The notes: generated by a model from the letters alone, not told the origin. Shown: positions 1 through 23,729, counted from the stretch's first letter. The stretch is DNA of 23,729 bases from a virus (IMGVR_UViG_3300026320_000028:1-23729), one strand, 5' to 3'. A program made the numbers and translations.

Positions 1-567
1 CGCTTGGTAAAACGTCGTAGGAGCGTTACCAGACGAACCCAATGCAAATACGTCATCAGACTCCGCCATATCACTAAGCAAATGTAGAAAATAAAATGGG
101 TTAACATATTTACCTCGTTGTTCTCCATCCAGTTCAAGACGGAAGTATTTATATAAGGCTTTGCACCATGCAAGCCATTTGCCATCCTCGGCGTTTATGT
201 TGCCGCCAATCCTAGCGACATCAGCTTCGATAGTATAAAATCTTTCTGGTAACTTGTTCAATTCCGCAGCGTCCACATCGTAAACCCATATCTCGGCATT
301 CGGCGCGAATCTATCATAATCATATGCCACTTGTTCGCCATCTAATCGTGCGCCGAAGCAATAAAGATGAGTGGCTTTCTGTTGAATGATGTTAGCCGCG
401 CGTTGGCCGAAGATACCGGGGCGTCCACAAAAGACAGGACTATCCTCTGGCAATAAATCCGCCGCCATCCAAGTTGTAAGTATTGGTATGTTGAGACTGC
501 AAAGATGTTCAATCAGTGCGGGATTATTCCTTACCCCATTTCCGAGTAAGATAACGGGCTTATTCAT
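1..567 (-). CDS. Acetolactate-synthase-like ThDP enzyme, central and start of C-terminal domain (partial)
   Basis: Reading leftward from the ATG at 567, the frame stays open to the window edge (189 codons), so the C-terminus is missing. It starts MNKPVILLGNGVRNN and contains GRPGIFGQRAANI and FAPNAEIWVYDVDAAEL, the pattern of the central domain of thiamine-diphosphate enzymes of the acetolactate synthase type found in polysaccharide gene clusters. The end (VFALGSSGNAPTTFYQ) looks like the beginning of the cofactor-binding PP domain. The start overlaps the stop of the upstream gene as ATGA, so translation is probably coupled. The upstream gene encodes the N-terminal domain of the same enzyme, so the pair looks like one enzyme split at a domain boundary. 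Family is confident; substrate is unknown. Confidence 0.8.
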   Translation of the reverse strand, partial: MNKPVILLGNGVRNNPALIEHLCSLNIPILTTWMAADLLPEDSPVFCGRPGIFGQRAANIIQQKATHLYCFGARLDGEQVAYDYDRFAPNAEIWVYDVDAAELNKLPERFYTIEADVARIGGNINAEDGKWLAWCKALYKYFRLELDGEQRGKYVNPFYFLHLLSDMAESDDVFALGSSGNAPTTFYQA

Positions 568-1082
568 AGTTCCGCCATCTGAACGTCCATAGGAATATCT
601 AACCACACCGGGCCGGGGCGTCCTCCCCTGGCAATCTCAATGCAACTATCCAAGGTATAAAGAATATCCGATGAACTTTCCTCGTTATAGAAACCCCAGC
701 AATGCTTTGTCATAGGCTGCACCATCTCAATCGTCGGCCCTTCCTGCGTTCCGCGCGTCCTCATTCCCGGCAATGCCATCCATTTCGTCATCACTTGCCC
801 AGAGATAAATAATACCGGTACCGAATCAGACCACGCGGCAAGGCATGGCGTCATAGCGTTTGTAGCGCCAGGTCCAGAAGTCACAAGACACACACCGAAG
901 CCATGATGCTGGGCGTAACCGACTGCCGCGAAGCCCGCGCCTTGTTCATGGAGACAACATACCGCGTTAATCCCTGATTGCCCGAGCGCGTCAACAAGAG
1001 GGGCGCAGCCTCCACCAGGTAAATAGAATACATGATTGACTTCGGATTTCAGGCGGGCAAAAATTGCATCGGCGACTCTCAT
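564..1082 (-). CDS. Acetolactate-synthase-like ThDP enzyme, N-terminal PYR domain
   Basis: 172 residues covering only the N-terminal pyrimidine-binding domain of an acetolactate-synthase-like enzyme, a family usually about 550 residues long. CLHEQGAGFAAVGYAQ carries the conserved glutamate that activates the thiamine cofactor, and LVTSGPGATNAM and DSVPVLFISGQV are hallmark strings. It ends with RPGPVWLDIPMDVQ, the normal end of this domain, and then stops. The following gene (start 567, ATGA overlap) continues with the central domain in another frame. Known relatives in polysaccharide clusters include enzymes that transfer a two-carbon unit from pyruvate to a keto-sugar (YerE type); that role here is only a possibility. 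The start overlaps the preceding stop by ATGA. Confidence 0.85.
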   Translation of the reverse strand: MRVADAIFARLKSEVNHVFYLPGGGCAPLVDALGQSGINAVCCLHEQGAGFAAVGYAQHHGFGVCLVTSGPGATNAMTPCLAAWSDSVPVLFISGQVMTKWMALPGMRTRGTQEGPTIEMVQPMTKHCWGFYNEESSSDILYTLDSCIEIARGGRPGPVWLDIPMDVQMAEL

Positions 1083-1306
1083 ATCTCGATTATCTCATTC
1101 TCCACGCCCATGGCGCGAATATTGGCTATGAGTCTTTGGCGTTGTCCTTGTGCCATTATGACTATCGGCGCGTCGTTATCTGGGCGTTCCAATACCGGCT
1201 TGCCATTATAGATTTGTCCGCGATATGCAGGATCGTTGTCGATATAGTTCAGCACTTGGAAGTCTTCATCTACCAGAGATAAGATATGCCACACAATATC
1301 ACTCAT
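1079..1306 (-). CDS. C-terminal domain of the C-methyltransferase in a shifted frame
   Basis: The coding signal continues past the stop of the methyltransferase gene (1318) in the -1 frame. This frame reads INIWGMSDIVWHILSLV, then YIDNDPAYRGQIYNGKPVL and APIVIMAQG, which resembles the Rossmann-like C-terminal domain of zinc-binding sugar C-methyltransferases. An ATG at 1306 follows the upstream stop by 11 nt, but the first strand of the domain (INIWG) lies upstream of it. A frameshift within one original gene is therefore more likely than an independent gene. The stop makes an ATGA overlap with the start of the next gene, which supports this frame being translated. The frame is open back to 1519; a TTG at 1372 is another possible start. 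Confidence 0.5.
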   Translation of the reverse strand: MSDIVWHILSLVDEDFQVLNYIDNDPAYRGQIYNGKPVLERPDNDAPIVIMAQGQRQRLIANIRAMGVENEIIEI

Positions 1307-1317
1307 TCCCCATATGT

Positions 1318-2055
1318 TTATCGGCTGGGTGATAAATCCAAGCGCAAGGAGTATTCTGTGTTCATGTTCCAATATATGGTCGCTTGATTGTTGTGCCACA
1401 TCCAGCCTTTTGAAATGCACCTGATAGCGAGGCCGTATCTCCTGCCCAAGTCTAAAAGGTTGCGAAGTGTGAAGTGATTCAAATGCTTTGTATTGAAGTC
1501 CAAGATGGGCATCTTCCAACGATTGAGTAAGCCGGTTGCGTCAGGTACGTCTACAATTAGAAGGCCATCGGGCGCGAGGGCTTGTGTTAATTGTTTCATC
1601 GTCTTATGTAAGTCATAGATATGTTCGAGGACATGGGAGGCGTAGATAATGTCGCAGTTATCAGGAAGTTTATCGGATGGGCCGATGTTATAGGATTTCT
1701 TTCGCCCAGCTTCATGCATCATATCCACTATGATACTTAATCCATCATCACCAGCACCTCCAAAATCTATAAATATTTGCCAATGTTCTATCTGCCCCAT
1801 TATCATTATGGCATCTTCCATTAGACGCGCTTGATTGTCTGAATTGCTTACCCCATATCCATAATACTTTGTATAGTATTCGTCCAACATGGCTTGATTG
1901 AAGTCGCCATCCCCGAATATCATGCCGCAGCGATCACATGTGTACCAGGTTATCTTCTCGGGCAGGGGCCAATGGTCGGGTGTTTTATAATTCATTGAGA
2001 ATATTTCTTTGCGCCAAGTGGGGCCGCCAGTGCAAACAGGGCAGGGTCTAGCCAT
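1318..2055 (-). CDS. Zinc-binding SAM-dependent C-methyltransferase, C-terminally interrupted
   Basis: 245 residues from the ATG at 2055, chosen because it gives an 8-nt overlap (ATGGCTAG) with the preceding stop; a longer frame starts at 2109. The N-terminus has two CxxC pairs (C5/C8, C40/C43), the zinc-binding domain of sugar C-methyltransferases. IFIDFGGAGDDG near residue 100 is the SAM-binding loop, and ASHVLEHIYD near 140 with LLIVDVPD near 165 are typical of this class. Such enzymes usually act on NDP-keto-deoxysugars. Relatives are near 400 residues. Here the frame stops after SLRLDLSPSR while the expected C-terminal domain continues in the next frame, so the gene is split or frameshifted around 1320-1375. 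Confidence 0.75.
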   Translation of the reverse strand: MARPCPVCTGGPTWRKEIFSMNYKTPDHWPLPEKITWYTCDRCGMIFGDGDFNQAMLDEYYTKYYGYGVSNSDNQARLMEDAIMIMGQIEHWQIFIDFGGAGDDGLSIIVDMMHEAGRKKSYNIGPSDKLPDNCDIIYASHVLEHIYDLHKTMKQLTQALAPDGLLIVDVPDATGLLNRWKMPILDFNTKHLNHFTLRNLLDLGRRYGLAIRCISKGWMWHNNQATIYWNMNTEYSLRLDLSPSR

Positions 2056-2308
2056 TTGGCACCGCGAAACTAAAAAGAAGATTCTCTTTCGCCAACGCAA
2101 TCGCATCATCGAGATCGTAAATCGGAATCCCCATGAATTGTCCTAATTCTTTTCTTTTTTCTATACCACAGCCAGCACAGAAAACGCCATAATTATTATG
2201 TTGAACATTGGGATTACCACAATAAGCACATTCGCGCCCCGTTTTCATTTGTTCAGCAAGTTTTCGGGAAATCAAAATATACTTATTTGTTATTGGGTAG
2301 TTATCCAT
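2048..2308 (-). CDS. Small zinc-ribbon protein
   Basis: 86 residues with no recognised family. A CxxC pair at CAYCGNPN and a second at FCAGCGIEKR form a classic four-cysteine zinc ribbon in the middle of the protein, followed by a short charged tail ending LLFSFAVPNG. It overlaps the radical SAM gene upstream by 8 nt (ATGGATAA) and the methyltransferase downstream by 8 nt, so it is translationally embedded in the metabolic cassette. It could be an accessory or carrier protein for the neighbouring enzymes, but that is a guess from position. Confidence 0.65.
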   Translation of the reverse strand: MDNYPITNKYILISRKLAEQMKTGRECAYCGNPNVQHNNYGVFCAGCGIEKRKELGQFMGIPIYDLDDAIALAKENLLFSFAVPNG

Positions 2309-3311
2309 TCCTTATTCTTTCCACAAACTCTTCTCGGTTTGCATCGATATTGTCTGGCAGGGCCTGCATGTAATCGCAGTTCTTGCAGGCTGCGTTCTCG
2401 TGCTTGTGTCCAGTAAGGTGCATCAGGCGGAAGGCTTTCAATTTCTCACCATGCCATATATCCATTATACTCTCGTCCTTCACATTGCCCAGCTTGTGAA
2501 GATGAAAGGCGTCATCGTTGCATATACTCACATCGCCATTGCTATTCACGGCCAGCATGTAAAGCACCAAGGGACAGGCAATCTTCTCTTGACGCGGTGT
2601 GCCATCGAATGATTGATTTGTTCCCAGCTTGAAATCAAATACCTCAGACGTACTCCAACCATGCAAGCCCTCGATGGCTATATAGTCACATCTGTCCCCG
2701 AAATCCTGAATGAATTTGTCTTTCTGTTCCTGTGTCAATCCTACGTCTGCAATCTTGGTGGATACTTTTGTATTTGTACCGCGGCTTCGCTGGTATAAGT
2801 CTAATACCCCCGCGCGATATTTCTCGTAATCGACGCGGACTTTAGCGATATCAAAGAACATCTGTGAGTTAATACCTGTGACACTGACTCCGATCATATC
2901 CAGGCCGCAATCCACTAGCTTGCTGTTCAGTTCAGGCCCGAGTAGTTGCCCGTTCGTCTTTACCCAAATGCTTTCAGTAATTTGGGCATCGCGTATATAC
3001 CGCACCATGTCGGGAAAGTGTTTGTTGAGTAATGGTTCACCGTCTTTATAGAGATTAGCGCGCTTGGCCTTCTTGCCGAAGCCTTTGAAATCATCCACTA
3101 CCTTACAGAATAATTCATAAGACATAAACGTCGGCTTGCGCCCATATTGCTTCAGTAAATCAGGGTGTCCAGTCGGACAGAACTCACACTTGTAATTGCA
3201 CGGATCACCCGTGTCTATGAAGATAGTCCATGGTGCCGGCAATGGTACTACATCGATCAATCTTTCTCTACGTTCGCCGCGGAGATCGCGGGCTTGGATT
3301 ATCTCAGCCAT
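2301..3311 (-). CDS. Radical SAM/SPASM domain protein
   Basis: 336 residues. The radical SAM cluster motif CxxxCxxC is at C38, C42 and C45 (PCNYKCEFCPTG), and KDGEPLL near residue 90 matches the GGEP motif. The C-terminal part has the SPASM pattern: C246 in ACPLVL, NGDVSICNDD with C264, and ACKNC at C309/C312, which would bind one or two auxiliary iron-sulfur clusters. LGNVKDESIMDIW is the usual SPASM linker. Family members modify peptides, sugars or other small molecules. No precursor peptide is obvious nearby, and the neighbours (methyltransferase, SDR, ThDP enzyme) favour a sugar or polysaccharide substrate, by inference. The start follows the previous stop by 6 nt. Confidence 0.9.
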   Translation of the reverse strand: MAEIIQARDLRGERRERLIDVVPLPAPWTIFIDTGDPCNYKCEFCPTGHPDLLKQYGRKPTFMSYELFCKVVDDFKGFGKKAKRANLYKDGEPLLNKHFPDMVRYIRDAQITESIWVKTNGQLLGPELNSKLVDCGLDMIGVSVTGINSQMFFDIAKVRVDYEKYRAGVLDLYQRSRGTNTKVSTKIADVGLTQEQKDKFIQDFGDRCDYIAIEGLHGWSTSEVFDFKLGTNQSFDGTPRQEKIACPLVLYMLAVNSNGDVSICNDDAFHLHKLGNVKDESIMDIWHGEKLKAFRLMHLTGHKHENAACKNCDYMQALPDNIDANREEFVERIRNG

Positions 3312-3317
3312 TATTAC

Positions 3318-3563
3318 TCATAGGGGTGCGCCACACTGACAGCAATTGCCATTCGTAATTGCGTTCCCTGAACCACAATGAGAACAAGAGATTATAACTT
3401 TCTTAGCATTGATATACATCTTTTCCCATAAGGCATCAAAATCAAAGGAGTCTGCCATGCTAGACCAAGTAATGGCCTTGGATCCTGACGCGCCCGAAAT
3501 CATAATCTTGTCAGCATCCTCCACTGTAGTTACTTCAATTAAATCAGATACTTTCCTACCCAT
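3318..3563 (-). CDS. Small protein with tail-fibre-like motif and C-terminal zinc ribbon
   Basis: 81 residues from the ATG at 3563, chosen because it overlaps the SDR stop by 8 nt (ATGGGTAG); an in-frame ATG at 3584 would add seven residues. The N-terminal half (KVSDLIEVTTVEDADKIMIS followed by GSKAITW) resembles a short module common in phage tail-fibre and virion proteins, in which a K-V/I-S-D-L start is followed by a D-x-hydrophobic-hydrophobic-I-S stretch and a K-x-I-T end. The C-terminus has CSHCGSGN and CCQCG, a four-cysteine zinc ribbon. A virion-associated role is possible, but the gene sits between two metabolic enzymes. Function unknown. Confidence 0.6.
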   Translation of the reverse strand: MGRKVSDLIEVTTVEDADKIMISGASGSKAITWSSMADSFDFDALWEKMYINAKKVIISCSHCGSGNAITNGNCCQCGAPL

Positions 3564-4251
3564 TCTTTGCCAGCCATCCTCCATCGACTACGATGGTTTG
3601 TCCATATACATTTGTTGAGTTGATAAGATACATCAAGGCGTCGGCCACTTCCTCGGGCTTACCAAATCTACCAGAGGGTGTGATGCTTTCCAATAACTTG
3701 CGGCGTTCCGGGGCCATATCTTTCACCATGTCGGTATCTGTGAGTCCTGGGGCGATAGCATTCACGTGGATAAGAGGCGCCCATTCGATAGCCAGCGCGC
3801 GCGTGAGGCCGAGTAATGCGTGCTTCGCTGCGACGTAACCGACGATATTTCTCGCGCCTTGAAAGGCGGCTGTTGAAAGGATATTGACGATATGGCCGCC
3901 TGAATTAAACATAATATTAGCGGCCTGTTTTGATAACTCAAAGGGGGCAAGCACCATTAACTCAATAGCGTTTTTCATTTCTGTGTGTAGATACTTTCCT
4001 GCGGGGTTTTGGGCACCTGCGTTATTAACAAGTATATCCATGCGCCCAAACTTATCAGCCACGCGTTCCACTATATTCCCATGAGGTAGATATAAATCAT
4101 TCCGCAAATCCGCCTTGATAAACAAATCGCATCCTTTCGGTGCGTCCCCTCTCCCCACTACTGCTACCTTAATATCGTTCAATCGTAACTCACGCACCAT
4201 GGCGAGGCCGATGCCGCGAGTGCCGCCAGTGACGAGGGCAACTCTACTCAC
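3556..4251 (-). CDS. Short-chain dehydrogenase/reductase (SDR)
   Basis: 231 residues, normal length for a classical SDR. The NAD(P)-binding TGGTRGIG is at residues 8-15, NNAG at 76-79, the catalytic serine near 126, YxxxK at Y139/K143 (GYVAAKHALL) and the NAIAPG turn near 164. All catalytic residues are present, so it is probably an active NAD(P)H-dependent oxidoreductase of the FabG-like type. It starts with GTG, overlapping the upstream stop by 8 nt (GTGAGTAG). SDRs in polysaccharide clusters often reduce keto groups on modified sugars, which would fit the ThDP and methyltransferase neighbours. The substrate cannot be deduced. Confidence 0.92.
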   Translation of the reverse strand: MSRVALVTGGTRGIGLAMVRELRLNDIKVAVVGRGDAPKGCDLFIKADLRNDLYLPHGNIVERVADKFGRMDILVNNAGAQNPAGKYLHTEMKNAIELMVLAPFELSKQAANIMFNSGGHIVNILSTAAFQGARNIVGYVAAKHALLGLTRALAIEWAPLIHVNAIAPGLTDTDMVKDMAPERRKLLESITPSGRFGKPEEVADALMYLINSTNVYGQTIVVDGGWLAKNG

Positions 4252-4495
4252 CTTTTACCAACCATTCAGGCCAATCCTTCATGCCAGTAATCCATTCGAT
4301 GCGTAGGCCCCATGAATAAATCAAACGTGAATGTAGCTTTCTTCCAATCCAGCGTAGTAATTTAGAGCGTTCGTGGATGTACCAATATCCATTCCATATT
4401 GAAGGATGAACCACGGCTAGATATGGGGATGGGTGCGCCGATGCCTTATATAATTCCTTTATAGCTTTCTCGAAGTCCTCAAAGGATAATGTCAT
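4244..4495 (-). CDS. Small uncharacterised protein next to head genes
   Basis: 83 residues, no recognised family. It is rich in aromatic residues (IWNGYWYIHE, YSWGLRIEW, WPEWLVKGE). The string SPYLAVVHPSIW resembles a stretch seen in some phage capsid proteins, but the protein is far too short to be a capsid. It has an 8-nt overlap with the SDR start and an ATGA overlap with the shifted end of the preceding gene (TGA 4494-4492). Position between the minor head protein and the cassette suggests a structural accessory role, unproven. Confidence 0.6.
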   Translation of the reverse strand: MTLSFEDFEKAIKELYKASAHPSPYLAVVHPSIWNGYWYIHERSKLLRWIGRKLHSRLIYSWGLRIEWITGMKDWPEWLVKGE

Positions 4496-4522
4496 TCTCC
4501 CTTCGCAATTCTCTTGGCTTCT

Positions 4523-4747
4523 TCAAGAATCTGGCGAGTCTCTCTCGCGAAAGGCTTCCTCATAGAGCTCGGGATTATCCATCTTCATCTCAAGCTCTAC
4601 CATGTGAGATTCACCATTAGGCTTGGTTATCCAAACATCAATCCTGATTTTATTAGGGATAATATGGATTTCCTCCCTGATTTTATAGATTGTCATTTCT
4701 GAAATGATATTAAGGATTTTGGTAATAGCCTGAGATAATTCATCCAT
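4523..4747 (-). CDS. Small uncharacterised protein, probable frameshift near C-terminus
   Basis: 74 residues in the open frame, starting MDELSQAITKILNIISEM and starting at the TAATG junction with the minor head gene. The frame ends RERDSPDS at 4523. If one base is skipped near 4545, the next frame reads FARETRQILEEAKRIAKGE and stops at 4492, giving an amphipathic helix end and an ATGA overlap with the next start at 4495. That looks like the authentic C-terminus, so the sequence carries either an extra base or a +1 frameshift site. A GAGAGAGA run lies at the join. Function unknown. Confidence 0.6.
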   Translation of the reverse strand: MDELSQAITKILNIISEMTIYKIREEIHIIPNKIRIDVWITKPNGESHMVELEMKMDNPELYEEAFRERDSPDS

Positions 4748-5709
4748 TACTCACCAATCAATTCTCCCAGCGTGGCCGGGACTGTCATTGTTCCATAGAC
4801 TTGAGAATCTACGGTCTTGGATAATTGGCTAAACTCAAACTTGCCTTGCTGCCAGGCGTCGTACTTACCGGGCCCGAGAAATGCGGCTTGTTCTTCAGGA
4901 GATAATCCATTGAACCAATCCTCGCCAGATGGTATATCGCCTGTAATTCCTTCAATATAAGGAATGGCCGCACATCTACAATTATAGTGACCGTCGAGAG
5001 TTTCATCAAGGGGATGGATGGTGCCGTGCTCTGCCGCGCACGCTTCGCAAGTATCACCGTCGAGTTCTGCATACCATACCCAGCCAGTTACTATTCCATC
5101 AGACGCCATGTAATTAGCCCGCGAAGCATCGCGATAAGAATATAACTGGACTGTCCTTGTATTGCGAAGGGCATCGGTGAGTCCTCCACCGAAGGCATCC
5201 TGGATCATGGACGCGATTTTGCGAGGATTGAATCCCTGTGATACGCCGTCAATAATGGATTGAACCACATTAGAAACTGTGCCATCCGTAATTAACTTAA
5301 GTCGCGCATATAGCGGGCCATCGGGAGAGAGATAGGATAATAGCGGTCGGATGACGGAAGAATTCAGTCCGATAAAGCCGGGATCTGCGAGATTAATAAG
5401 TTGCCTTGAGTCTCCAATTCCCTGACCGATAGAGGCTAAGGCTACCGCGCCGATCGTAGTTTCAAGATAGATGGTGAAACGGTCCAGTTCCTCGTTCGCG
5501 TGCCTTATCAGTCTTTTATATTGCGGCAGCGATTCAACTTCTGATTGAGTAGGATTATCCAGTTGTTCAATCGCGAGAGTTAATGCATCTATATCCCCTT
5601 GCAAGCGATCATACATTACCAGATAGGCATGGCTAATAGCCTCCAAGTTTGAGGCGTCTTTGGATAATAGATTAGCTTTCTGTTGCTTAACGAGTTGGAG
5701 GAGTTGCAT
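4747..5709 (-). CDS. Phage minor head / head morphogenesis protein (Mu gpF / SPP1 gp7 type)
   Basis: 320 residues. The diagnostic C-terminal motif is present at residues 213-250: WYAELDGDTCEACAAEHG with C221, C224 and H228, then H232, and GHYNCRCAAIPY with H241, C244 and C246. This Cys/His pattern defines the Mu F-like head morphogenesis domain. The N-terminal half is helical. Relatives are minor capsid proteins that join the portal during prohead assembly and may be carried with the DNA. The gene follows the portal with a 23-nt overlap, which is the standard order. It ends at TAATG, starting the next small gene. Confidence 0.92.
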   Translation of the reverse strand: MQLLQLVKQQKANLLSKDASNLEAISHAYLVMYDRLQGDIDALTLAIEQLDNPTQSEVESLPQYKRLIRHANEELDRFTIYLETTIGAVALASIGQGIGDSRQLINLADPGFIGLNSSVIRPLLSYLSPDGPLYARLKLITDGTVSNVVQSIIDGVSQGFNPRKIASMIQDAFGGGLTDALRNTRTVQLYSYRDASRANYMASDGIVTGWVWYAELDGDTCEACAAEHGTIHPLDETLDGHYNCRCAAIPYIEGITGDIPSGEDWFNGLSPEEQAAFLGPGKYDAWQQGKFEFSQLSKTVDSQVYGTMTVPATLGELIGE

Positions 5710-7258
5710 TCGCTTGTGCTATTCTGGCACTAGCTGTGCCTTGTACTTGTAATGCTGTCCCGCGTGCTTGATTAAAGCCTTGGCCCTGATTGAAATTGCG
5801 AAGTATCTGTGCGCCTATGTCGCCGTTGTTCTGATTGGCCTTAGCTTGTTCATCAGCCAGTGCCTTTTGTATATCCTCCCATGATTTTCCATAACGCATG
5901 AACCAACGTTGGGCCACCGTCTCTTTATCAACGATGCCTAAGTTCAATGCTTTCTCGTCGGTTGTGATTTCCTCAGTAATATTCACTGGCAGAGGATTGC
6001 CCCATTGAATCTCACCCGGGTTCGATGCCTCAGCCGCATTGCCAGCAAGCACCAAGAGGCGGCGATTCAATTCCTTCAGCGCATCACCATATAATTGACG
6101 TTTGGTATCGTTCTTATCGATTGCATCGGACCATAGAATTTGTAAGCCGAAGTTTGTCAACGCACCTAATTTATCTGCCATCGAGGAAATATCCACCTCA
6201 CGCGATATATCAAAGACTCCTTGCCGCATATCCAACGCGAAGGAACGGGATGAGGCGAGATCCGATTGCATCTCAAGATTGAAGACTTTTGCGTCTTTGT
6301 TTGGGATGGCATGAAATGAACCTGGCATGGTTGGCACGGCTTGCATTTCAGATAAAGTTAATCCCGTTCCGATAGTCTCAGGATGGGCGTGGAACTTAAT
6401 AATCTTGCCTGTATTCGACATGACGAAGTTGGCTTTATCCTGCACATTAATAGCATCGTCAATATCGCTATCACCATAGCAGGATTTGAGGGATGGTAAG
6501 TTCTTCCAATGAATGATGGGAGGGAAGTCATAGGGCCAGGCTTGAGAGTCAACCTTCTGTCTCTGGCTTCCACTTTGTTCCCAGTAATCTACCAACCAGG
6601 TAACTGCATTGTCGGATGTTTCCTCGTTGGGGTTCTTATACTGCCCAACTACATTACCCGCCGAATCAAAGCCGTACGTCACATCGGACCGGACGGTTAT
6701 CTCCCAATAAGAGACTTGTCCGATCTTATATTGAATGACATACATCTCAACTTCGTTCATATCCTGCGGGTCAGTCTTAATGCGAATGACCTCGGGATCA
6801 ATAGCTACCAAGCGAGGATATTCCTTGCCAGTATATGGATCAATCAATTCCTCGGGTTGTATCTTAAAGTATGGAGTTCCGTAGACTGCCCCATGCAGGC
6901 CGGCTTGATAGAGAATGATTTCTTTCTTATTCAAATCCCACACTGTATCAAGATATTCTTGCTGGGCTGTACTTCCTTCTGGTAACTTGAATTTAATTCC
7001 CCCGCGATATAGACGAGACACCGATCTATCGACCGCCAGGCCGATGAAGTTCATCGTAATGTTGTCGTCAGTAACCGAACCAGTCACAGGATCTATCTTG
7101 GTTCTAAGCTGCTTCCTCTGATTGCCTGAGTAGTAATGGCCCAGGATGTTATATCCCTGCCCCATCTGGTCATTGATATAGGGCGCTATTCGTTGGCCCA
7201 GCCAGTCACCGAAGCCGTTGAATACGTTATTGAAATAAGTTGAAATGATATTAGCCAT
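5687..7258 (-). CDS. Phage portal protein (SPP1 gp6-like)
   Basis: 523 residues, a typical portal length. The N-terminus is helical, followed by FIGLAVDRSVSRLYRGGIKF, then the beta-rich wing region (YPRLVAIDPEVIRIKTD, MYVIQYKIG) and the clip/stem region with DDAINVQDKANFVMSNTGKI, a pattern seen in SPP1 gp6-type portals. The tail is Q/N/A-rich, which is common. The portal forms the dodecameric ring for DNA entry and docks the terminase. It lies between TerL (7 nt upstream) and the minor head gene. An AGAGG ribosome binding site overlaps the TerL stop. Confidence 0.9.
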   Translation of the reverse strand: MANIISTYFNNVFNGFGDWLGQRIAPYINDQMGQGYNILGHYYSGNQRKQLRTKIDPVTGSVTDDNITMNFIGLAVDRSVSRLYRGGIKFKLPEGSTAQQEYLDTVWDLNKKEIILYQAGLHGAVYGTPYFKIQPEELIDPYTGKEYPRLVAIDPEVIRIKTDPQDMNEVEMYVIQYKIGQVSYWEITVRSDVTYGFDSAGNVVGQYKNPNEETSDNAVTWLVDYWEQSGSQRQKVDSQAWPYDFPPIIHWKNLPSLKSCYGDSDIDDAINVQDKANFVMSNTGKIIKFHAHPETIGTGLTLSEMQAVPTMPGSFHAIPNKDAKVFNLEMQSDLASSRSFALDMRQGVFDISREVDISSMADKLGALTNFGLQILWSDAIDKNDTKRQLYGDALKELNRRLLVLAGNAAEASNPGEIQWGNPLPVNITEEITTDEKALNLGIVDKETVAQRWFMRYGKSWEDIQKALADEQAKANQNNGDIGAQILRNFNQGQGFNQARGTALQVQGTASARIAQANATPPTR

Positions 7259-7265
7259 ACTGCCT

Positions 7266-8564
7266 CTAGTTGTAAAATGGATTTTCGACTACTTCCACTT
7301 TGCCAATATAATCGCTGTCATCTTCATAAGCATAACGAGTCGCGTCAATCAAATGGTTATTGCGATCCACCGGGACAGGAAGTCCGCCACTTCTCACAAC
7401 CGCGCCGCCTGCATCCTCTTTCCATTTGTAGGTTGAAAATTCATTCTGTGCATTAATGCACTTCTTGTCTATTATAATCCTTTGCTGCTGTAGCCATTGG
7501 ATACCATGGACGATTGAGTCTTTGCCCTTCTTCGCGCCGGCTGCCTCAACGCCGTGTTGTCTTAATTCTTTAATCCCCTTTGGTTCTGCACTATCAAATA
7601 CTATTCGTTCAGACCCTATAATGTTCTTTACTCTCTCTGCCAGTATATCATTTGTTAAGCCTAATTCGTAGAGCTCATCGAATATGTAAATCGTTTTGTG
7701 CTTCTTGTCATAATGGCTTGATATGATAGCCGCGGGGTCAGTCGAGAAACCGAAGTCGCCGCCATTGCGCTTGTTCGTTCGCTGTTCTAATGGTAGATTG
7801 TATTCACCATCCTCAAGTAAATCAGCCACTATCCAATTCGTGAAAATGACATTCCCAAGCACACCCCAATTGCCGAGGGTGTAGACATTGAAAAAGTATG
7901 GATCACTCTCATTCTCGAGGTCGGCAATATCGTCTTTCTCGAGAAAGCGATTATCTTTATAAGTGGTTTTTAGAACTGTCAGTCTCTCGCTGTGATAAGC
8001 TGTCTGTCCATCCGCCCAACCCAAGCCGGAGAAATACGCCTTGAATACCCAATGATTCTTGAATATCGGATTGAACAGCAAGGTAATTGTCTTTCTTATA
8101 TCACCTTCCACTTTCCCCCTTTGACGTTTCATCAATTGCTTTATGGAGTTTTGGTTTGTCTCTGTGGCTTCCTCCACAATTATGTCAGTAAGTACACCTT
8201 TTTTAAAGGCAATGGATTTAAGCTTTTCAACGTCATCCAAGCCCGCGAATACTGCCTGGTATCCGTTCTTACAAGTCACTGTGCCATCTGTTTTATTGAT
8301 ATTGAATAAGTCATCCAATCCCCACTCGGATATGACTTTAGCCACCTCTGTAGCTACTGATCCACGAATGGACGTCTTAGTCTGACGGCAGATAAGATAA
8401 TTATGTCCGCCTTGCAAGAGATGGTAAATGGTTCTCTGGCCGACAATGAACTTGCTTTTACCAGATGAAGCCCCTCCGAAGTATATCTGTATGCGTGCTT
8501 GATTATCTAATTCCGGGATATATATGTCATTAATGGCCGACTTGGGGATATTGACGTTAATCAT
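7266..8564 (-). CDS. terL: Terminase large subunit (TerL)
   Basis: 432 residues, a two-domain packaging motor of the Terminase_3 (SPP1/PBSX) type. Walker A is FGGASSGKS (residues 29-37, K36), and Walker B with the catalytic glutamate is DIIVEEATE (E131/E132). The C-terminal nuclease acidic residues are D270 (GGDFGFSTDP), D324 (VFDSAEPKG) and D407 (NHLIDATRYA). All key residues are present, so it should be active. The start overlaps the TerS stop by 8 nt (ATGATTAA). Confidence 0.96.
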   Translation of the reverse strand: MINVNIPKSAINDIYIPELDNQARIQIYFGGASSGKSKFIVGQRTIYHLLQGGHNYLICRQTKTSIRGSVATEVAKVISEWGLDDLFNINKTDGTVTCKNGYQAVFAGLDDVEKLKSIAFKKGVLTDIIVEEATETNQNSIKQLMKRQRGKVEGDIRKTITLLFNPIFKNHWVFKAYFSGLGWADGQTAYHSERLTVLKTTYKDNRFLEKDDIADLENESDPYFFNVYTLGNWGVLGNVIFTNWIVADLLEDGEYNLPLEQRTNKRNGGDFGFSTDPAAIISSHYDKKHKTIYIFDELYELGLTNDILAERVKNIIGSERIVFDSAEPKGIKELRQHGVEAAGAKKGKDSIVHGIQWLQQQRIIIDKKCINAQNEFSTYKWKEDAGGAVVRSGGLPVPVDRNNHLIDATRYAYEDDSDYIGKVEVVENPFYN

Positions 8565-9087
8565 CCGTCAGCTTTACGTTTATTGTGAGGTTCGCGTCCT
8601 TCAATTTTCCGCCCATTTTCAATATATTTGTTTGAGCTGCATCAGCGGCATAGAGTTCGAGTTCCAATTCATGGATTTCCTTGTCCTCACCATCTTTGGT
8701 TTTGGCCTGAATAATGGTTGTCTTTTGCTTGAACTTCTTTATCAGCTTCGTAAGTCCCTTGTCCTTGGCGGATTTCAAGTCCAATGAACCCCCAACCGAT
8801 GTTATCTCCATCAGTTCACCTATGTCCCCACGCGCTATATCTGATTGATAAGCGATGGCCTCATCAGCCGCCATTTGTCCTACCGCAATACGTCGATTTA
8901 CCTCGGCCCTAATGTTAGGCTTTGCTAGGAACTCAGCAACGCTTGATCGTGCCGAATCGTATCCTGATTTAGGATGTGTCTCTAGCCAAGCACGAGTGCC
9001 ATTCATGTGCAGAAAATATCTATTCAATACGGCTTTATCTTTGGGGGTTAAGGGTTTTTCTTCTGGTTTCTTTTCTTTCTTTGTCAT
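8557..9087 (-). CDS. terS: Terminase small subunit (TerS)
   Basis: 176 residues. After a lysine-rich start, LTPKDKAVLNRYFLHMNGTRAWLETH is the helix-turn-helix entry of the Terminase_2 family, followed by SARSSVAEFLAKPNIRAEVN, the family signature. The C-terminal part should form the oligomer core and the TerL contact (ELELYAADAAQTNILKMGG). TerS recognises the packaging site and loads TerL. No cos or pac site could be identified from the sequence. It is directly upstream of TerL with an 8-nt overlap. Confidence 0.92.
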   Translation of the reverse strand: MTKKEKKPEEKPLTPKDKAVLNRYFLHMNGTRAWLETHPKSGYDSARSSVAEFLAKPNIRAEVNRRIAVGQMAADEAIAYQSDIARGDIGELMEITSVGGSLDLKSAKDKGLTKLIKKFKQKTTIIQAKTKDGEDKEIHELELELYAADAAQTNILKMGGKLKDANLTINVKLTDD

Positions 9088-22320: not shown

Positions 22321-23130
22321 TTAAAGGGGCGCTTGGGTCTTCATTACCCAATTTGTGAAAAATTCGATGCGCCAGCCTGTTTGTCGCTGTAAACAGATGA
22401 ATCCGAATCGATTATCCCAGTTAATTTGTGCCCAAACGTCGGGGCCTGAACATTGATAGTTGACTATATTAGCAATATCTCCATAATTCAAAGCCCCTAA
22501 GACATAGCCCGAGGGATTAGGTTGCAATCTAACATGCAAATCTCCTGAGGCAAAGAGAGATCCGCGCGCCGTAACTTGTACTGCCAGTCCGCCTGGCGGG
22601 ATTTCCGGGAACTTCTCTATCCTCGATCGATGTATCCATAACTCGGAATATTTCATCAGGGGAATATAAGCATCAAGTCCTATGCCTAGTTTCAAGAACC
22701 CGCCGCGCTTTCTCACCGCGCAGAATTTGTGTATATATTGTGGATAATTCCAATAGTCCAATGGGGAGGAAGTCTGCGGGACTTGTGTGAAAGATAGAGC
22801 CCTTATTCTATTCCAGTCTCCCTCGACTCTATCTATGTCTATTAGATTTCCACCGAAGGAAAGACTCTCGGCATTGGGAGGAAAGTTAATCCATCCAGCA
22901 TCGGGAATCATGATGGCTTTATAAGCGCGCTTGCCATTAATTTTAAGAAGCAAATCTTTATACTCTTGTGTAATGGGAATCTTATGCCCCTTAAATAATC
23001 TTTTAGACTCATCTGATAATGTAACTGTCTCGGGAGGATTAGATTTCCCGTTCCAATATTGAGACTTGGAACGAGACCTAAATTCCATATCAGCGCGCTG
23101 AAAGTCATGTAAAAGGCGGGCGTAAGTCAT
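22321..23130 (-). CDS. SH3-domain-containing protein of unknown function
   Basis: 269 residues. The C-terminal part has a bacterial SH3 pattern: GDLHVRLQPNPSGYVLGALN, then YGDIANIV and WAQINWDNRFGFICLQ. The N-terminal two thirds (KGHKIPITQEYKDLLLKING, AIMIPDAGWINFP) match no recognised lysin or peptidase domain. A cell-wall or tail-associated function is plausible because SH3 domains usually bind peptidoglycan. ATGA-coupled to the LuxR-type gene. Confidence 0.6.
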   Translation of the reverse strand: MTYARLLHDFQRADMEFRSRSKSQYWNGKSNPPETVTLSDESKRLFKGHKIPITQEYKDLLLKINGKRAYKAIMIPDAGWINFPPNAESLSFGGNLIDIDRVEGDWNRIRALSFTQVPQTSSPLDYWNYPQYIHKFCAVRKRGGFLKLGIGLDAYIPLMKYSELWIHRSRIEKFPEIPPGGLAVQVTARGSLFASGDLHVRLQPNPSGYVLGALNYGDIANIVNYQCSGPDVWAQINWDNRFGFICLQRQTGWRIEFFTNWVMKTQAPL

Positions 23131-23357
23131 AGTCTATATTCCTTGTTCATATCTTCTGGGATCAAGCTATTTTCATAACAATAAATCACAATTTGCGATC
23201 TATTATACAGCCCCAATTTTTGCCTAATAAAAAGTCCGTATTTATAGACATCATTCACAGATACACCCATCTTGTCCGCTATCTGTGCATCTGTTAGTCC
23301 ACTTGCGATCAACAATATGACTTCTGATTCTCTGCGAGAAAGCTTTAATGTACTCAT
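23127..23357 (-). CDS. Solo LuxR/GerE-type helix-turn-helix protein
   Basis: 76 residues. LSRRESEVILLIASGLTDAQ, IADKMGVSVNDVYKYGLFIR and QKLGLYNRSQIVIYC cover the whole four-helix GerE DNA-binding domain with the family E-x-x-V-L and I-A-x-x-(L/M)-x-V-S motifs. No receiver or ligand-binding domain is attached. A phage transcription regulator of this type next to tail genes may control late or lysis genes. TAATG-coupled to the LamG gene. Confidence 0.88.
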   Translation of the reverse strand: MSTLKLSRRESEVILLIASGLTDAQIADKMGVSVNDVYKYGLFIRQKLGLYNRSQIVIYCYENSLIPEDMNKEYRL

Positions 23358-23729
23358 TATGAATATGCACTTGTTGGCGGAGTGAAAGTGGTTGTCCAGC
23401 GGGCAATGCCTTTACTAACACGTAATTCATCTATCCAACCATTGAAATTCTGTAGCGTCCTAGTATTACCATTCGCGCCTATTACGGGAGCTGCGGTTTC
23501 GTTTATATAACTTGTTGTATCGGGGGTATATGTAGACCCTTCTTGTGTCCCGTTTAGAAAAAGTTTTGTATTTGTTCCTGAACGGGCAAGCGCAATATGA
23601 TACCAGGCCCCTGTTGTCAAGGCGGTTGTTCCTGTTATTTGAGTTGCTCCATTGACCGAAAAAATAATAACATTTGCTGCCGATATTTGTATTTGCGGGC
23701 ATGTGGTTGATCCGCTCCCAGAAGCCCTT
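23357..23729 (-). CDS. LamG/concanavalin-type tail protein (partial, N-terminus beyond window)
   Basis: The open frame covers 23357-23729 and continues off the window. It holds ALTTGAWYHIALARSGTNTK, LFLNGTQEGSTYT and FNGWIDELRVSKGIARWTT followed by a TPP ending, the LamG-type carbohydrate-binding module common in tail and receptor-binding proteins of environmental phages. It probably binds host surface glycans. The TTG at 23620 is internal to the gene, not its start. It ends at TAATG of the LuxR-type gene. Confidence 0.85.
   Translation of the reverse strand, partial: RASGSGSTTCPQIQISAANVIIFSVNGATQITGTTALTTGAWYHIALARSGTNTKLFLNGTQEGSTYTPDTTSYINETAAPVIGANGNTRTLQNFNGWIDELRVSKGIARWTTTFTPPTSAYS

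Follow-up and report, generated by a model that had tools for sequence, protein, structure and literature searches.

A predicted nucleotide-sugar cassette with a split YerE-like enzyme among the head genes of uncultured tailed phages

Why should a phage encode enzymes of sugar chemistry among its head genes? The question is posed by the linear viral record IMGVR_UViG_3300026320_000028 of IMG/VR, analysed here over its entire 23,729 bases and referred to as the window, in which a block of such genes, the cassette, follows a minor head gene and touches the left contig end. The answer that we favour, with a probability of about 0.55, is that a presumably late-expressed nucleotide-sugar pathway lodged between head genes would serve to glycosylate the virion, probably its capsid.

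A sugar-synthesis block within phage head operons

On the minus strand the window encodes, in order, TerS, TerL, portal, MuF, two small open reading frames (ORFs), a short-chain dehydrogenase/reductase (SDR), a zinc-ribbon-like protein, a radical S-adenosylmethionine (rSAM) enzyme with a SPASM domain, a two-CxxC protein, a methyltransferase and a thiamine diphosphate (ThDP) enzyme (Table 1; domain and family calls are from Pfam, NCBIfam and PHROGs profiles). An earlier note on this DNA had placed an SDR, a radical SAM enzyme, a zinc C-methyltransferase (CMT) and a ThDP enzyme after the minor head gene (1-4251, minus strand), and Pfam and NCBIfam bear this out, with the amendment that the ThDP enzyme is really two ORFs and that the methyltransferase is broken by a 43-nucleotide (nt) deletion.

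Searches with the PYR-domain protein of the ThDP enzyme and with the rSAM enzyme recovered the viral relatives compared below (L- and G-numbers denote loci or contigs and records). The cassette or variants of it occur in at least 20 IMG/VR contigs, about 17 of them clearly different, mostly at 50-73% identity per gene, and it sits in the head operon in every contig where head genes are present. Its usual order is TerL, portal, MuF, SDR, rSAM, CMT, the N- and C-terminal ThDP halves, a dehydratase (E1) and an epimerase, followed by protease/capsid or scaffold and capsid genes; in L024, L025 and L106 the block is flanked by portal and MuF, and its internal order differs in L010 and L022. Because the order MuF-SDR-rSAM-CMT-ThDP recurs in independent assemblies, L018 among them, a chance association is excluded, and the recurrence of head-cassette junctions in independent contigs likewise rules out contamination by host chromosome. 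Polysaccharide-type clusters of bacteria carry the same enzymes, and the concern that this set might co-occur nowhere else is dispelled by its recurrence in phages and bacterial sugar clusters alike.

By these comparisons the cassette is an accessory module that favours certain places in the head operon, since L066, the nearest relative by complete terminase (74%) whose head genes are also visible, is without it: there MuF is followed by scaffold and capsid genes, and a single small zinc-ribbon-like ORF is all that was recognised between them. L077, L109 and L112 similarly have no cassette. Among 50,697 deposited phage records the rSAM enzyme found one match, at 24% identity, and E1-like genes in deposited phage records, mainly those of Synechococcus phages, are about 28-34% identical; a portal-based search for relatives found none. 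The 80,305-base record of L015 (G004, loci L037-L040) contains head operon and cassette twice, in differing versions separated by about 55 kb, which gives the impression of an assembly that fused two related genomes, each about 55 kb in size. Three viral contigs (L004, L005 and L006, in records of up to 194 kb) encode glycosyltransferases, fused ThDP enzymes, DegT-type enzymes and epimerases, and are distant from the cassette.

Predicted chemistry and history of the enzymes

The dehydratase E1 follows the C-terminal ThDP gene in relatives, at a place past the window's end, and belongs to the RfbH-type cytidine diphosphate (CDP)-sugar 3-dehydratases. That of L007 scores 456.3 bits against a curated RfbH cut-off of 423, and its closest solved structures are 3bcx, with which it aligns at full length, and 3bb8 (a His-to-Lys variant). 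All 11 homologs examined keep both the catalytic His that replaces the pyridoxal phosphate-binding Lys (SFYPAH) and the iron-sulphur cysteines CxC-x7-C. The substrate of this family (CDP-6-deoxy-L-threo-D-glycero-4-hexulose 3-dehydratase) is CDP-4-keto-6-deoxyglucose.

A single-chain ThDP enzyme of the form PYR-M-PP is not what the window or most relatives encode: PYR and M-PP are separate genes, sharing a 4-nt ATGA overlap in the window, with most of the linker of the fused form gone. The C-terminal half, which leaves the contig here, comprises 364-401 residues in relatives, and fused enzymes were seen only in L010, in bacterial loci and in distant viral loci. Assignment to an enzyme type rests on the M-PP half and on the fused form of L010. 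Among solved structures the full-length M-PP homolog of L007 scores 147.6 bits with JanthE (8rph), a YerE-like enzyme (PMC12188165), versus 87.7 with the best acetolactate synthase, and the L010 enzyme scores 272.5 with JanthE versus 252.0, so that both match JanthE better than acetolactate synthases; the PYR half alone, whose top match is acetolactate synthase II, does not discriminate. In yersiniose A the acetyl branch is put in place by YerE (PMC12247030; PMC4753412), and on the best reading of these scores the phage enzyme is YerE-like rather than acetolactate synthase-like, with a predicted carboligation of an alpha-keto acid onto a keto sugar.

The point of division is not constant. The cut falls between PYR and M-PP in the main clade, L024 and L091; in L025 a PYR and a PP gene are left with the M domain missing, and in L106 it separates PYR-M from PP. 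In the tree the split genes form one phage clade, the examined bacterial enzymes and that of L010 being fused. Genes for GIY-YIG homing-type nucleases, 58% alike, lie between the ThDP halves of L007 (L007:13666-14652) and L003 (L003:1127-1834). A homing endonuclease as the general cause of the split was considered and rejected, most split contigs being without one; because L007 nests among these, the endonuclease probably arrived after the split.

The rSAM enzyme carries cysteines 38, 42, 45, 246, 264, 309 and 312, invariant in 16 homologs, which make up a CX3CX2C motif and four auxiliary-cluster positions; the auxiliary spacing of 18/45/3 is that of BtrN, in a gap-free alignment. Its confident AlphaFold model (predicted local distance difference test score, pLDDT, of 90) finds BtrN (4m7t) as the best Foldseek match, followed by DesII and BlsE, with SpeY lower. 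All of these belong to sugar or aminocyclitol and nucleoside pathways. The best reading of motif and model is a BtrN-like enzyme predicted to perform a two-electron oxidation of a sugar or cyclitol hydroxyl, as BtrN turns a cyclitol hydroxyl into a ketone (PMC9012708). The SDR is 55-66% identical across the main group of cassette phages, and in the interval between SDR and rSAM genes, occupied in the window by the zinc-ribbon-like protein, L024 encodes a CxxC...CxxCGAP protein.

In the intact CMT of L007 a zinc-cysteine N-terminus, an S-adenosylmethionine (SAM) domain and a C-terminal domain share one chain, a possible sign of the TylC3/TcaB9 type; matches to the sugar 3-C-methyltransferases 5t64 and TcaB9 are weak (6e-5 to 1e-4). 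DNA alignment with L002, L007 and L018 shows the window gene to be short by 43 nt at 1423/1424, a frameshifting loss that occurred in the phage or in assembly. Between its rSAM and CMT genes L007 has HNH-like and RNA-ligase-like (RLIG1) genes inserted (L007:11002-11915).

Bacterial clusters from metagenome-assembled genomes (MAGs) help to place these enzymes. Four (L027, L028, L030 and L031) resemble surface-polysaccharide loci with GT2 and NeuB-like genes, and a single contig of a Sedimenticola MAG (L028) encodes RfbG (CDP-glucose 4,6-dehydratase), E1, a fused ThDP enzyme, a NeuB-like protein, an epimerase and an SDR, along with the same rSAM enzyme and RfbF (glucose-1-phosphate cytidylyltransferase). 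Since E1, the YerE-like ThDP enzyme and the BtrN-like rSAM enzyme coincide with this gene set, our best guess at the product is a CDP-linked, C-branched, 3,6-dideoxy (3-deoxygenated) sugar.

In the pathway that we propose, E1 would remove the 3-hydroxyl of host-made CDP-4-keto-6-deoxyglucose, and the YerE-like enzyme, assembled from two chains, would extend the keto sugar by a branch of at least two carbons taken from an alpha-keto acid. The rSAM enzyme might oxidise or otherwise remodel a ring hydroxyl in the fashion of BtrN, the CMT might put a methyl group next to a ketone, and the SDR and a short nicotinamide adenine dinucleotide (NAD)-epimerase, also encoded in relatives, would reduce or epimerise. 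A glycosyltransferase (GT), which relatives encode past the capsid gene, would finally attach the completed sugar to its acceptor, most probably the major capsid protein or some other protein of the head. Directly observed are gene content, conservation and position, the membership of E1 in its family and the YerE-like and BtrN-like signatures; late expression, substrates, the order of steps, the end product and the capsid as acceptor are predictions.

In trees of rSAM, SDR and E1 the sequences of the main phage cassette group in clades of good support beside bacterial relatives, and at L010:4979-9334 a fused bacterial-like ThDP gene and a divergent CMT stand beside SDR, rSAM and E1 of the phage type. 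By sequence L010 is a case of gene replacement inside the cassette, and its foreign ThDP gene and divergent CMT, next to phage-type neighbours, rule out vertical descent of the whole. That the ThDP gene was replaced while SDR, rSAM and E1 stayed suggests the need for the function. Cassette ratios of nonsynonymous to synonymous substitution (dN/dS, omega) run from about 0.03 to 0.32 and are comparable to those of head genes, with many dS values near saturation; two capsid values, from G4A pairs, were left out as apparent alignment failures.

Table 1. Positions of cassette and head genes in the window, and of differently divided ThDP genes in relatives
Feature	Position	Strand	Basis
ThDP enzyme, C-terminal half (M domain and start of PP domain), leaves contig	1..567	-	Pfam TPP_enzyme_M 3.5e-18
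ThDP enzyme, N-terminal half (PYR domain)	564..1082	-	Pfam TPP_enzyme_N 6.5e-31; HEQ motif, E = residue 46
Methyltransferase C-terminal domain, out of frame	1079..1423	-	tblastn 54-67% to continuous CMT ORF of L002, L007, L008; DNA alignment
Sugar C-methyltransferase-like, zinc motif and SAM domain, cut short by frameshift	1318..2055	-	Methyltransf_23 8.5e-17; N-terminal CxxC...CxxC
Small two-CxxC zinc-ribbon-like protein, 86 residues	2048..2308	-	Sequence; no Pfam match
Radical SAM enzyme, BtrN-like twitch domain	2301..3311	-	Pfam radical SAM 4.8e-11, SPASM 7.5e-15
Small zinc-ribbon-like protein	3318..3563	-	Sequence; start 3563 gives 8-nt overlap
SDR oxidoreductase	3556..4251	-	adh_short_C2 9e-40
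Small protein, function not assigned, none seen in relatives	4244..4495	-	Profile scan and relatives
Small protein, function not assigned, none seen in relatives	4523..4747	-	Profile scan and relatives
MuF-like minor head protein, upstream neighbour of cassette	4747..5709	-	phrog_115 1.3e-16; TIGR01641 barely above cut-off
Portal protein	5687..7258	-	phrog_64 6.3e-25
Terminase large subunit TerL, PBSX type	7266..8564	-	TIGR01547 above cut-off
Terminase small subunit TerS	8557..9087	-	phrog_51 1.7e-12
Differently split ThDP genes	L025:1100-2250; L091:14045-15678; L106:18573-20257		Three different domain boundaries

Probable destination of the sugar

That the product modifies the virion or the host surface, as the earlier note had supposed, is what we infer as well. 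A GT or GT-like gene lies past the capsid gene in seven of the seven different cassette contigs that reach so far (L002, L007, L010, L015, a second strain within the L015 record, L020 and L024). The GTs of L002 and L024 are assigned by Pfam or PHROGs together with homology; the L010-type protein (L010:13455-14174, with homologs in L007, L015 and L020) has weak PHROGs matches, is related to phrog_1574, a PHROG of no assigned function, and is by its structural model possibly a GT-A glycosyltransferase. Neither the Wzx-type flippase family PF01943 nor the O-antigen ligase family PF04932 had a match in the phage records searched, many of which are fragmentary, and the same holds for tyrosine-integrase families. 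Because the cassette adjoins capsid and GT genes and no flippase or ligase match was obtained, the virion is favoured over the host surface. Of the polysaccharide-type cassette envisaged in the earlier note, the sugar-synthesis part is supported, since many phages keep it at a place between portal/MuF and capsid, and the word polysaccharide stays conjectural in view of these same missing matches.

Several observations weigh against virion glycosylation. The window itself stops inside the ThDP enzyme, ahead of E1, epimerase, capsid and GT, and its methyltransferase is broken. For the L010-type GT Pfam gives no match, and the model of this protein, with a pLDDT of 50, yields a weak GT-A match whose best Foldseek hit is the collagen-modifying LH3. 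A GT past the capsid gene is found also in the cassette-less L066 (a GT4) and, by eye, in L128; in view of L066 a strict linkage of GT and cassette is not claimed. In bacteria, such sugars end up in surface polysaccharide. The precursor, too, is a difficulty: the RfbG model matched in none of the eight phage records searched, and among these only L024 has a cytidylyltransferase-like gene, so that the host must usually supply the CDP-sugar precursor. L106, outside that search, has a 4,6-dehydratase-like SDR.

The alternative that survives best, though we regard it as unlikely, would send the same branched CDP-sugar to the host surface, where a late change of lipopolysaccharide or glycolipid could leave released virions untrapped and rival phages unable to adsorb. 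Sugars of the YerE type are known in O-antigens (PMC12247030, PMC4753412), the four bacterial counterparts with GT2 and NeuB-like genes look like surface-polysaccharide clusters, and L025 encodes in addition one protein of the NeuB family and one that is NeuC-like; set against this are the lack of flippase and ligase matches, the placement of the cassette with late head genes and of the GT beside the capsid gene, and the consideration that a late surface change would be less useful before lysis. It is improbable that the sugar is destined for a different virion component made late, for instance tail fibres or the LamG-containing protein, or for phage DNA, with the head position a matter of timing only. 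All genes do lie in one same-strand late operon, and a LamG-type protein is encoded at the other contig end, but the GT adjoins the capsid gene rather than tail genes, and the window, itself part of a genome, shows no recognisable gene for hydroxymethylated bases. Finally, a functionless passenger from a bacterial polysaccharide locus, already decaying, could account for the frameshifted methyltransferase, the close relative L066 without a cassette and, if read as decay, the divided ThDP genes, yet it is made very improbable by dN/dS values that, in several pairs, are low throughout the cassette, by active-site motifs that are kept, and by the L010 replacement of the ThDP gene with SDR, rSAM and E1 retained.

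Virion glycosylation being preferred, a fuller picture may be drawn, which we offer tentatively and with the odds somewhat against it: a phage lineage would produce its own nucleotide sugar, branched and 3-deoxygenated, by means of a heteromeric YerE enzyme together with an rSAM dehydrogenase, timed with head assembly, and coat its capsid with it, the ThDP enzyme having been repeatedly cut into domain subunits at different points.

The packing of the operon carries no mark peculiar to the cassette. The 8-nt overlaps remarked on earlier are all exact (4244/4251, 3556/3563 with ATG at 3563, 2301/2308, 2048/2055 and, for TerS/TerL, 8557/8564). They had been taken as a special stitching of the cassette into the operon; because 12860/12867 shows the same overlap, they are rather the general style of this phage's compact operon, in which 1-nt and 4-nt overlaps occur too. 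A simple scan found no strong terminator between MuF and the cassette, which is weak evidence, the promoter/terminator scan being uninformative. At the far end (23127-23729) a LamG-type protein (tail/structural PHROGs) and a LuxR-type helix-turn-helix protein are encoded on the same strand, for which reason the genome probably continues beyond both ends of the window. A 7.6-kb contig (L067) has TerS/TerL twice, in inverted orientation, perhaps an assembly artefact.

Relation to known systems

Virion glycosylation is known in a few phages and is mostly discussed as the transfer of host-made sugars. If the capsid is indeed the acceptor, the coat chemistry of the particle would be genetically programmed by the phage, which would point to a role in stability, adsorption or evasion, and a naturally split YerE-type carboligase would be of biocatalytic interest. 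Every enzyme is from a known family and modification modules in phage head operons are already known; what would surprise, measured against the open-licence literature, is a de novo branched-sugar pathway in a head operon together with a YerE-like enzyme that has been split repeatedly and at different places.

Known cases each share some of these traits. The O-antigen pathways of yersiniose A and its kin (YerE, ErwE, JanthE) likewise combine a YerE-like ThDP enzyme, an E1-type dehydratase and reductase-type enzymes; the present cassette differs in being phage-borne, within a head operon, with a two-chain ThDP enzyme and an additional BtrN-like rSAM enzyme and C-methyltransferase. Cyanophages, as seen in the E1-like genes of Synechococcus phages, also carry an RfbH-like dehydratase, but these are large phages and the sequences are distant, at about 28-31% identity. 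In the nrdA gene of phage Aeh1, split by mobE (PMC2988022), one enzyme is similarly made as two chains, and L007 and L003 have a homing endonuclease gene at the split, whereas the ThDP split occurs also without an endonuclease and looks older than it. Flagellin glycosylation islands beside fliC in Enterobacteriaceae (PMC4875605) resemble the cassette as variable accessory inserts that place GT and sugar genes next to the gene of the structural protein modified, although they concern a bacterial flagellum and not a virus. Glycosylation of mycobacteriophage virions is noted in PMC12691614, which cites Freeman 2023. The closest precedent is mycobacteriophage Corndog (cluster O), which encodes an O-methyltransferase, two glycosyltransferases and an N-acetylglucosaminyltransferase between portal and capsid protease, and for which capsid modification has been proposed (PMC4351075). 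Both have sugar-modifying genes in the head operon between portal and protease/capsid; the Corndog module as described transfers and methylates sugars, whereas the present cassette, with E1, a YerE-like ThDP enzyme and an rSAM enzyme, would build the nucleotide sugar itself.

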